From the NCBI GenBank assembly GCA_902582235.1, contig CACHQX010000001.1, positions 16,768 through 80,767 on the forward strand: a DNA stretch of 64,000 nucleotides, read 5' to 3'. Positions 57,302-61,282 of the stretch are shown here, piece after piece. The position numbers and the translations under genes are program-made. Every line of letters starts with the position of its first letter. The first letter of the stretch is position 1. The notes under the pieces were generated by a model. It was given only the letters and a program-made list of their open reading frames with translations, did no database searches and had not been told where the DNA came from. This stretch comes from an uncultured Pelagibacteraceae bacterium (lineage in GTDB: Bacteria; Pseudomonadota; Alphaproteobacteria; Pelagibacterales; Pelagibacteraceae).

Positions 57302-58588
57302 ATGACAATTAAATATTTAAAAAAAGCAACTAAAACTGCTTCAACGGATGACACTAAAACAAAAGAGATTGTACAAAATCTTTTAAAAGAACTTGAAAAA
57401 TCAAAAGAAGAAGGTTGTAAAGAATTAACAAAAAAGTTTGACAAATACGATGGTGAAATAATTGTTTCTAAAGAAAAAATTGAAGATATTAAAAAGAAAT
57501 TAGATAAAAAGACTAAGGACGATATTAAGTTTTCTTATGATAGAGTTAAAAAATTTGCTGAAGCTCAATTAAAAAATTATGGGAAAGATTTTGAAGTAGA
57601 ACTTTCAAATGGATTATATGCTGGACAAAAACTAGTACCAGTAAATACAGCTGGATGTTATATACCCGGTGGTAGATATGCGCACATTGCTTCAGCTGTG
57701 ATGAGTGTAACTACTGCAAAAGTAGCTGGAGTAAAAAACATTATCGCATGCAGTCCACCAAAAGAAAATATAGGCGCCCACCCTTCTATAATTTATACGG
57801 CTGACTTATGTGGTGCAGATGTAATTTTAAATCTAGGTGGTGTGCCAGCTATAGCTGCAATGACTTATGGTTTATTTGGTAATGCGCCTGCAGATATTTT
57901 AGTTGGACCTGGAAATCAATTTGTTGCTGAAGCTAAAAGAATTTTATTCGGTAAAGTTGGTATAGATTTATTTGCTGGACCAACAGAGATTGGAATTATA
58001 GCTGATGAAACAGCAGATCCGGAGATTGTTGCGGTTGACTTAGTAGGACAAGCAGAACATGGTTACAACTCACCAGCATGGCTATACACAACAAGTCGAA
58101 AGTTGGCTGATGCTGTAATGAAAAGAGTTCCTGAATTAATTGAAGAATTACCAGAGGTGCCAAGATTAAGTGCTGAAGCAGCATGGAGAGATTATGGTGA
58201 AGTTATTTTATGTGATACTGATGAGGAAATGGTCAAGGTAAGTGATGATTATGCGCCTGAACATTTAGAACTACAGACAAAAGACTTAAAATGGTTCCAC
58301 GAAAGATTAAAAAATTACGGATCATTATTTATAGGTGAAGAAACTACTGTTGCATACGGTGACAAATGTTCTGGTACAAACCACATATTGCCTACTAAGG
58401 GAGCTGGAAAATATACTGGTGGTTTATTTGTAGGTAAATTTATTAAAACATTAAGTTTTCAAAGAATGACTAAAGAGTCTACAAAAGAAGTTGGTGCTGC
58501 TGCTGCTAGAATTTCAAGATATGAAGGTATGGAAGCGCATGCAAGAACTGGTGATGTAAGGCTTAGAAAATACGGTTATTCAAATTAA
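57302..58588 (+). CDS. histidinol dehydrogenase family, HpsN-like (sulfopropanediol dehydrogenase candidate)
   Basis: 428 aa; VGPGNQFVAEAKRILFGKVGIDLFAGPTE, VGQAEHGYNSP, YAPEHLEL, GTNHILPT, C-terminal RISRYEGMEAHARTGDVRLRKYG unlike canonical HisD. Confidence 0.82.
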   Translation: MTIKYLKKATKTASTDDTKTKEIVQNLLKELEKSKEEGCKELTKKFDKYDGEIIVSKEKIEDIKKKLDKKTKDDIKFSYDRVKKFAEAQLKNYGKDFEVELSNGLYAGQKLVPVNTAGCYIPGGRYAHIASAVMSVTTAKVAGVKNIIACSPPKENIGAHPSIIYTADLCGADVILNLGGVPAIAAMTYGLFGNAPADILVGPGNQFVAEAKRILFGKVGIDLFAGPTEIGIIADETADPEIVAVDLVGQAEHGYNSPAWLYTTSRKLADAVMKRVPELIEELPEVPRLSAEAAWRDYGEVILCDTDEEMVKVSDDYAPEHLELQTKDLKWFHERLKNYGSLFIGEETTVAYGDKCSGTNHILPTKGAGKYTGGLFVGKFIKTLSFQRMTKESTKEVGAAAARISRYEGMEAHARTGDVRLRKYGYSN

Positions 58589-58597
58589 AAGTTCATT

Positions 58598-60763
58598 TTA
58601 AAATTTACTGGATAGAGATAAATTGGCACTATTATTTTCTTGGTTTGAAAAATCATTTTCTAAATTAAACTCCATATTAAAAAGATCTAGCGCTTTAGAA
58701 ATCCTAAAGTTTGAAGACATATCGTTATCAAGATCTAATACAAGCTCTGTTTCTTTTTTATATAAAAAGCCTGCTGATAATGTAAATTTATTAATAAAAC
58801 CATGGCCCTTAATCTGTTGTCTTTCGTAATCAGTACTAATCGTTAATCCTTGTTCATGCTTTAAATCTAAACCAAGTCCTGCTGTGTATATATCTCTATT
58901 TTTGTTATCAGCTTGATATTCAAAACTTTCGCTATCTGATACATAACTTGTTACCACTTTAGAGTTTGAGGCAAACTCTTTACCATATTCAAGATTAACT
59001 CTAGATTTTACATTTGAGTTTTCTAAATTAATATCTCTATCAATTAGTACACCTAAAGAAGCCATTAAAGATTTAATATCTTGATCATTATAGCTAATAG
59101 CATTAGTGCCACTTTCGGTATAGCTATCAAGCGCTGTATAACTTCCGTCAATACTACCTATTGAACTAACAGTTAAGTCACTACCTTCATACTCTCTACC
59201 AATATCAAGTGAACCAAAAACTTGCTTACCATCACGGTCACTGGTATGAGTGTTGGTGTTTCCTTCGTCTTTCCTTACGATATCGCTATCTAAATAACTA
59301 ACTCCAAAAACATGTTTTAAAAAATTCTTGTCTTCTAAACTATTAATCCCATAAACAGAAAAACTTAAAGCATTGGTGTCAACTGCAGAACCAAAGGTTC
59401 CAATATCAACATCAGTGTTACCCACTCTTACAGCTACTCCTAATATTTGGTCTTCATCCATTTTTCTATCGGCACCTACAGTTATACCAAATCCATCTAT
59501 ATCTTGTGCAGAGCTTAAGGAAGTCTCACCAATTTTTCCAAAACTAATACTACCTTCAGTCCATGCTTCCCAGTCATTAGGTAAAATTTGATCTAACTTT
59601 TGAATTGGATTGAATTTAGCTTGAGTAGAACTTGCAACATTATTCGATACTTTCTTAAATAATTCATTTTGAAAGAGCAACTCTATTCTTTGAGCGCTCG
59701 TGTTTTGATATTTATTTGCTCTTAATATATCTAGTCTTTTAAAAGTAGCCACTCTTGTATCTTCAGCAAACTTTTTAGCAGTATTAATTTGTGCATCATT
59801 TATACCTCTTACATCTTTAATTTTTGGTGGCTCTTCACATTTTCCTGAACTAGTAACTTTAAAAGCACAGCTTAAGGTATATTCATTTATATCATCTCCA
59901 TCATTACTTACCACAAACATTTTGGTACCAGTAATATTAAAAGCTATACCTTGAGGATTGGTAGCTTGACTACTAATATCAAAACTACCTACATGAGTTA
60001 CAGTTGATGTTAAATCAAAGCCTACTGATAATGTATATGAATTTATCTCATTACCATTATCACCTACCACAAACATCTTGGTTCCATCATTATTAAAAGT
60101 AAGACCCCTAGGAACACCATCTTGATCGGTAATATCAAAACCTGTTCCATCTCCATTTATGTCATTGAAAGTTGCAGTTGTTAAATCAAAACCTGTTGAT
60201 AATGTATATACATATATCTCATTATCAGTATTACCTATGTAATACATTATGGTTCCATCATTATTAAAAGCAATACCTCTGGTTTTATCATCTTGAGCAC
60301 TAACGTCAAAACCTGTTCCGTCTCCATTTATGTCATTGAAAGTTGCAGTTGTTAAATCAAAACCTGTTGATAGTGTATATTAATTTATATCATAAGCAGT
60401 ATTACCTATCACAAACATCTTGGTTCCATCATTATTAAAATAAATATATATAGGCTTATCATCTTGAGCACTAACGTCAAAACCTGATCCCTCTCCATTT
60501 ATGTCATTGAAAGTTGCGGTTGATAAATCAAAAGCTGTTGATAATGTATATTCATTTATATCATTATCAGTATCACCTACCACAAACATCTTGGTTCCAT
60601 CATTGTTAAAAGCAATACCTCTAGGCGTAGTATCTTGAGCACTGACGTCAAAACCTGTTCCATCTCCATTTATGTCATTGAAAGTTGCCTCTGCTTGAAC
60701 CTTACTAACAAAAGTTAAATTAAAGATTAGAAATAATATAAATATTCTTTTCAAGACGTTCAT
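58598..60763 (-). pseudogene. autotransporter-type protein: signal peptide, tandem beta-propeller-like repeats, C-terminal beta-barrel; split by one in-frame TAA
   Basis: ORFs 60763..60380 and 60247..58598 are in the same frame; the 44 intervening codons still encode repeat; stop TAA at 60380-60382 replaces GAA of the repeat (DINEYTLS -> DIN*YTLS). Confidence 0.85.
60100..60740 (-). repeat. tandem 171-bp (57-aa) repeats within the autotransporter gene
   Basis: anchor GTCATTGAAAGTTGC occurs at 60161, 60332, 60503 and 60674 (exact 171-bp steps); protein unit ATFNDINGDGTGFDVSAQDxxxRGIAFNNDGTKMFVVGDTDNDINEYTLSTxFDLxT. Confidence 0.95.
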
Positions 60764-60838
60764 AGCTAAAAAAAGAAACTAATAACAAAGGTAAACTTTA
60801 AGAGAAAGCTTAAATAATGCCTGATTTATTTAAAAAAT

Positions 60839-61282
60839 TTAGTGGCAAGCAATATTAAATTTTTTTAATCTCCAATAATTATAAGGCCAAGGTGTTACAA
60901 AACCTACTATCAACATTAATGGAACAACCCACCAAGTTAATATTGCTCCGCCTGTTAAAAGATAATCTGTTAGATTCATTGCAACTTCCATACTAATCAT
61001 AGATATAAAACTCATCCCTATTGCAGTATTGAATGCTTTTTTAAAATCAAAATTTTGTCTCATGAGTATAACCGTTTCCAAAATTATACTTGTAATTAAT
61101 CCATTGATTATTGCTAAAGTCATTATACCAAGAACTGGAAATGGAATTTTACTTAATTGAAAAAATAAAATTGTTCCAAAATCACCAATAGAGCATCCAA
61201 GTAAACACCAAGCTGTGTTTTTTGCACTTCTTTTCCACGTGTGTTTGCAAGACCAATTAAAGGTTAAACTCTCTGAGCTCAT
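60839..61282 (-). CDS. DUF4396-like membrane protein
   Basis: 147 aa; WCLLGCSIGDFGTI, LETVILM, AFNTAIGMSFISMISMEVAMNLTDY. Confidence 0.72.
   Translation of the reverse strand: MSSESLTFNWSCKHTWKRSAKNTAWCLLGCSIGDFGTILFFQLSKIPFPVLGIMTLAIINGLITSIILETVILMRQNFDFKKAFNTAIGMSFISMISMEVAMNLTDYLLTGGAILTWWVVPLMLIVGFVTPWPYNYWRLKKFNIACH

Follow-up and report, generated by a model that had tools for sequence, protein, structure and literature searches.

The window, the stretch of 64,000 nucleotides of DNA analysed here, carries an interrupted autotransporter gene on its minus strand, within an insert between hisD and a DUF4396 gene. Read along the minus strand, the gene encodes a signal peptide and four 57-residue repeats (blades); then come a degenerate fifth repeat, a linker and the barrel of an autotransporter. 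L034 (AG-914-M14), the closest relative, and L035 (AG-908-E18) have orthologs at this locus, each with 721 open codons and five blades. Their locus has hisD on one side, and DUF4396, cupredoxin and alternative oxidase genes on the other. The features in the window are:

57302-58588, plus strand: hisD (histidinol dehydrogenase, PF00815), a border of the insertion site, from Pfam match and sibling comparison.
58589-60838, no strand: the whole insert, relative to siblings where hisD meets DUF4396, from sibling comparison.
58598-60763, minus strand: interrupted autotransporter gene, 721 codons plus the final stop, with one internal TAA.
58598-60247, minus strand: longest open reading frame past the stop, 549 codons, starting inside blade 3, without a signal peptide.
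58823-59566, minus strand: autotransporter beta-barrel, PF03797, from profile match.
59863-60004, minus strand: blade 5, a degenerate repeat at 156-bp pitch, with approximate boundaries.
60005-60175, minus strand: repeat (blade 4), 99.4% identical to L034.
60176-60346, minus strand: repeat (blade 3), 99.4% identical to L034.
60347-60517, minus strand: stop-bearing repeat (blade 2), 10 residue differences from L034 blade 2 with the stop counted.
60380-60382, minus strand: internal TAA; TCA, GAA, GTA, TTA or AGA in relatives.
60456-60486, minus strand: putative conversion tract of 31 nt in which blade 2 equals blade 3; seven sites differ from blade 2 of both L034 and L035.
60518-60688, minus strand: 171-bp repeat (blade 1), sharing 98.8% identity with L035 blade 1.
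60692-60763, minus strand: signal-peptide-like N-terminus (MNVLKRIFILFLIFNLTFVSKVQA), from sequence and from a helix at 2-20 of the modelled intact ortholog.
60839-61282, minus strand: DUF4396 gene (PF14342), the other border of the insertion site, from Pfam match and sibling comparison.

The first-pass annotation identified the gene as an autotransporter. This is borne out by the barrel, which scores 134.6 bits against PF03797 (cut-off 26), and by structural matches to EstA, NalP and EspP. The coordinates, strand and frame given there are also right. Exact 171-bp repeats had been described; this holds for the spacing and fails for the sequence. Tandem Repeats Finder reports 4.0 copies with a period of 171 at 60008-60688 (score 970, zero indels), while the four 171-bp units share 80.7-87.7% pairwise DNA identity. 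The longest exact run common to neighbouring repeats is 52 nt. The fifth repeat is degenerate and follows unit four at a spacing of 156 bp.

The lesion is a single nonsense codon, as first described: a TAA at 60382-60380 on the minus strand, preceded by 127 open codons and followed by 593, with the frame continuing through the barrel. The first ATG past it lies 44 codons on, at 60247, which also agrees with the earlier description. The frame from signal peptide to barrel is open in L034, L035 and other relatives, and is not open in the window copy; in intact orthologs the signal peptide and passenger are present within one chain, by inspection and by model. There are seven adjacent pairs of same-frame open reading frames in the 64-kb window. 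Only one of these, in the autotransporter gene, clearly interrupts one recognisable protein; the remaining pairs were judged by eye.

Homology and predicted structure suggest that the passenger is a five-bladed beta-propeller, held at the cell surface on an outer-membrane barrel. An AlphaFold2 model of the intact L034 ortholog (45 sequences) has a mean pLDDT of 78; its DSSP pattern shows a signal helix followed by repeated blades of four strands each, then a long helix and the barrel. The order of strands in this model suggests that an N-terminal strand may complete blade 5. Foldseek searches against the PDB return the autotransporter barrels EstA, AaaA, NalP and EspP, and also propellers. Sequence profiles match a YVTN surface-layer propeller (over the blades, E 2.3e-8) and EstA (significantly), and Pfam reports a lactonase-type propeller. 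PHROGs and NCBIfam searches with the bacterial protein gave no useful family.

Blade number is constant among the open copies examined. A blade profile counts exactly five in 76/76 open copies, which comprise 75 relatives and the window copy read through. On viral contigs, 59 of 64 complete open reading frames with the same blade carry 5, 10, 15 or 20 blades; these are arranged in groups of five, with linkers between groups. Five blades are therefore likely to be the folding unit, and loss or gain of a repeat should break the ring. Marine phage proteins with homologous blades were collected as L114-L193; at least one of them, L114, has a tail-fibre N-terminal part.

The genus was searched with the 45-sequence alignment in 300 genomes, one genome per species; autotransporter copies are found in 114 of them. 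A stop is flagged in 3 of the 150 genus matches listed (a few per genome). G143 and G042 are flagged, but as examples of recurrent stops they were rejected, since both stops lie 5' of the true start methionine; a protein-internal stop is found in the window copy alone among the 150 matches listed. As a control, hisD was examined for how often stops are flagged: three of its listed matches carry a flag, with alignments one residue short of the end, and these are taken as natural C-terminal differences. Outside the 150 listed, the ortholog in L049 (AH-324-K04; L049:2853-4508) has decayed independently and at several places: it has a different in-frame stop in blade 2, blade 4 is missing and the barrel is cut short. 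L220 (G246 contig 11) has two and a half blades fused in frame to an unrelated dehydrogenase-like end; this fusion is probably an assembly or amplification chimera.

These data bear on the earlier proposal that recombination between neighbouring repeats could delete or convert the stop, giving reversible ON/OFF and length variation. Repeat recombination itself is supported by a blade-3-like tract in blade 2 (see below) and by the blade lost in L049. A neighbouring blade could conceivably convert the stop codon. Length variation is contradicted by the constant five blades, the decayed L049 being the sole deviation, and OFF alleles do not recur: one is found in the 150 genus copies listed, in addition to L049 with its several lesions. 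A phase switch or antigenic variation, in which neighbouring blades add and remove the stop, is thus highly improbable. The conversion-like tract, the missing blade in L049 and an exact 52-nt stretch shared by blades 2 and 3 immediately 3' of the stop speak for such a system. However, TAA occurs in no other blade of the gene, hence there is no donor of the OFF state, and deletion of the stop-bearing repeat would leave a four-bladed protein, a form seen in no intact copy. Reversible switching is unsupported: conversion could in principle move the stop codon either way, but the family shows no recurrent OFF state and no length classes, and the 88% complete genome has no second copy.

The stop lies at a fast-changing position. 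Its column ranks fifth of 57 blade columns by variability. The corresponding codon is TCA in L034 and GAA in L035, while other relatives have GTA, TTA, GAA or AGA; GAA, TCA and TTA are each one base from TAA. It follows from the column rank and the codons in use that the stop struck a variable position, at which most of the common codons need a single base change to become TAA. GAA had been proposed as the parent codon. L035 agrees with this and the closest relative does not, so that at least one codon besides GAA could have been the parent. Of the 593 codons past the stop, 10 differ between the window and L034 (5 synonymous, 5 not). This small number means that the lesion is recent, as the first reading had it, or an error. 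The changes accumulated since then are too few for relaxed selection to stand out as a signal of its own.

The stop is known from one assembly, a draft of 995 kb in 26 contigs that is 88% complete, in which genome-wide absences are provisional; the genome is presumably a single-cell genome. The host is a SAR11 bacterium of the Pelagibacter type, and its closest annotated relatives are assemblies of uncultured Pelagibacteraceae. The TAA could be a technical error of this assembly, arising from single-cell DNA amplification or consensus calling, with the gene intact in the cell. An incomplete draft is compatible with such an error, as are the absence of TAA at this codon from the other relatives compared and the probable chimera in this same gene in G246, the relatives being mostly single-cell assemblies. 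Against this, the repeats share at most 52 nt of exact sequence, so an assembler with longer words is unlikely to confuse them, and 15 bases of blade 2 depart from L034, at least 7 of them matching blade 3, a pattern unlike random error. A technical origin is unlikely, though it deserves some weight.

Blade 2 differs from its ortholog far more than do its neighbours. Relative to L034, 15 of its bases and 10 of its residues (stop counted) are changed, against one base difference each in blades 3 and 4. A 31-nt run of blade 2 is identical to blade 3 of the window's own gene, and blade 3 is matched at 7/7 diagnostic sites; under independent change, the probability of this is near (1/3)^7. A short conversion from blade 3 is therefore the likely cause of the seven changes, and blade-to-blade conversion (blade 3 to blade 2) has likely occurred in this gene. 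The changed residues of blade 2 lie on variable columns, with a mean entropy of 1.71 vs 0.81; none of 20,000 random draws reaches 1.71. Ten differences in one 57-residue blade are many, and they could be explained by import of an unsampled blade 2 allele as readily as by change in place. A search of the rest of the genus for a donor of blade 2 gave nothing closer than the orthologous blade, at 91%.

Two other sources of variation were rejected. Retroelement-driven diversification has no PF00078 reverse transcriptase match in the 88% complete genome, and the changed bases are not adenine-specific. No paralogous template is found in the same (88% complete) genome, which has a single PF03797 copy.

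The gene is a mosaic: blade 1 is nearest to L035 (98.8%), and blades 3 and 4 are nearest to L034 (99.4%). This mosaicism, and the presence of TCA and GAA in the two closest relatives, are consistent with a stop created by recombination with its junction inside the codon (TCA-type and GAA-type joined as T|AA); the product would still be a null allele. A single base change explains the TAA equally, and a breakpoint inside one codon is unlikely a priori. We regard this origin as very unlikely.

The junction between hisD and DUF4396 is an insertion site for varied cargo. Siblings G183, G008, G230 and G049 lack the insert, and in them the stop codons of the convergent hisD and DUF4396 genes overlap. 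The site is occupied by a methyltransferase gene (PF08241) in G168, G205, G059 and G141, and by a 473-residue membrane protein without Pfam match in G201. G250 has a different signal-peptide protein and a SHOCT-domain protein; the former, at L196:3297-5033, is 579 residues long and has no Pfam match, and the latter, of 310 residues, comes after it. Occupancy of the junction was compared in the window (58589-60838) and in L195-L202, L205 and L206. More distant relatives have a propeller autotransporter, ~34% identical, adjoining hisD. A promoter and terminator scan found nothing above chance.

Sequence identity along the insert is uneven. The window is 97-100% identical to L034 and L035 over most of 60000-58600, and 86-95% identical over most of the immediate flanks. 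L041 shares 96-99% DNA identity with window positions 60150-59250, even though its flanks are unrelated and the hisD of its genome is 80% identical. Part of the gene has thus moved between distant SAR11 lineages by lateral exchange.

Conversion and exchange could be combined in a broader scheme, in which SAR11 cells vary the surface propeller by blade conversion and by cassette swaps at a fixed site, and stops like this one arise as short-lived side products that can be repaired from a neighbouring blade. If true, recombination would slowly let the cells alter or conceal a surface protein whose fold is also that of marine phage tail proteins. We hold this scheme to be very unlikely.

The interrupted gene is best explained as an accessory, laterally exchanged SAR11 autotransporter which here is a recent null allele, inactivated by one nonsense codon in blade 2; we give this reading a probability of about 0.65. 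Translation would end after ~1.8 blades. The truncated product, without a barrel, would reach the periplasm at most, and the open reading frame past the stop has no signal peptide, which would leave its barrel without export. It is this combination, a truncated chain without barrel and a downstream frame without signal peptide, that would make the allele null. The stop lies at one of the most variable positions of the blade, and blade 2 was probably also changing through conversion from blade 3. The likely fate of the cassette would be loss or replacement, as at the empty site of the siblings, rather than a programmed switch.

The nonsense allele itself is ordinary; its setting is more useful. 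The most abundant bacteria of the ocean have here a well-delimited family of surface proteins with five-bladed propellers. Its copies are exchanged laterally, a blade-conversion tract is visible, the insertion site is clean and flanked by two conserved genes, and marine phage proteins contain homologous blades. Questions of SAR11 surface variation and phage recognition therefore become testable at a defined locus.

The gene resembles type Va autotransporters with PF03797, such as EstA of Pseudomonas aeruginosa (PDB 3kvn), in having a signal peptide, a passenger, a linking helix and a C-terminal barrel. EstA is the best structural match and a significant sequence match. In contrast to EstA, which has an esterase passenger, the passenger here is a five-bladed propeller of tandem 57-residue blades, and the window copy is interrupted. 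SAR11 genomes are known to have gene indels between core genes as well as polymorphic autotransporters; type V autotransporters in the hypervariable region HVR1 are polymorphic between strains and subject to gene gain and loss (PMC2217521). Unlike these, the window gene is single and lies between hisD and DUF4396; the likeness observed is in autotransporter class and polymorphism. Its blades are similar in sequence to the YVTN-type surface-layer propeller (PDB 1l0q; E 2.3e-8); this match to a surface-layer protein spans the blades and not the barrel. Phages have five-bladed propeller receptor-binding proteins, such as phi11 Gp45 (PMC4901313). The window gene shares with Gp45 a five-bladed propeller in a surface-recognition protein; the likeness to Gp45 is in fold, while homologous blades are found in marine phage proteins. 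Unlike that of Gp45, the window propeller is joined to a cell-surface barrel.
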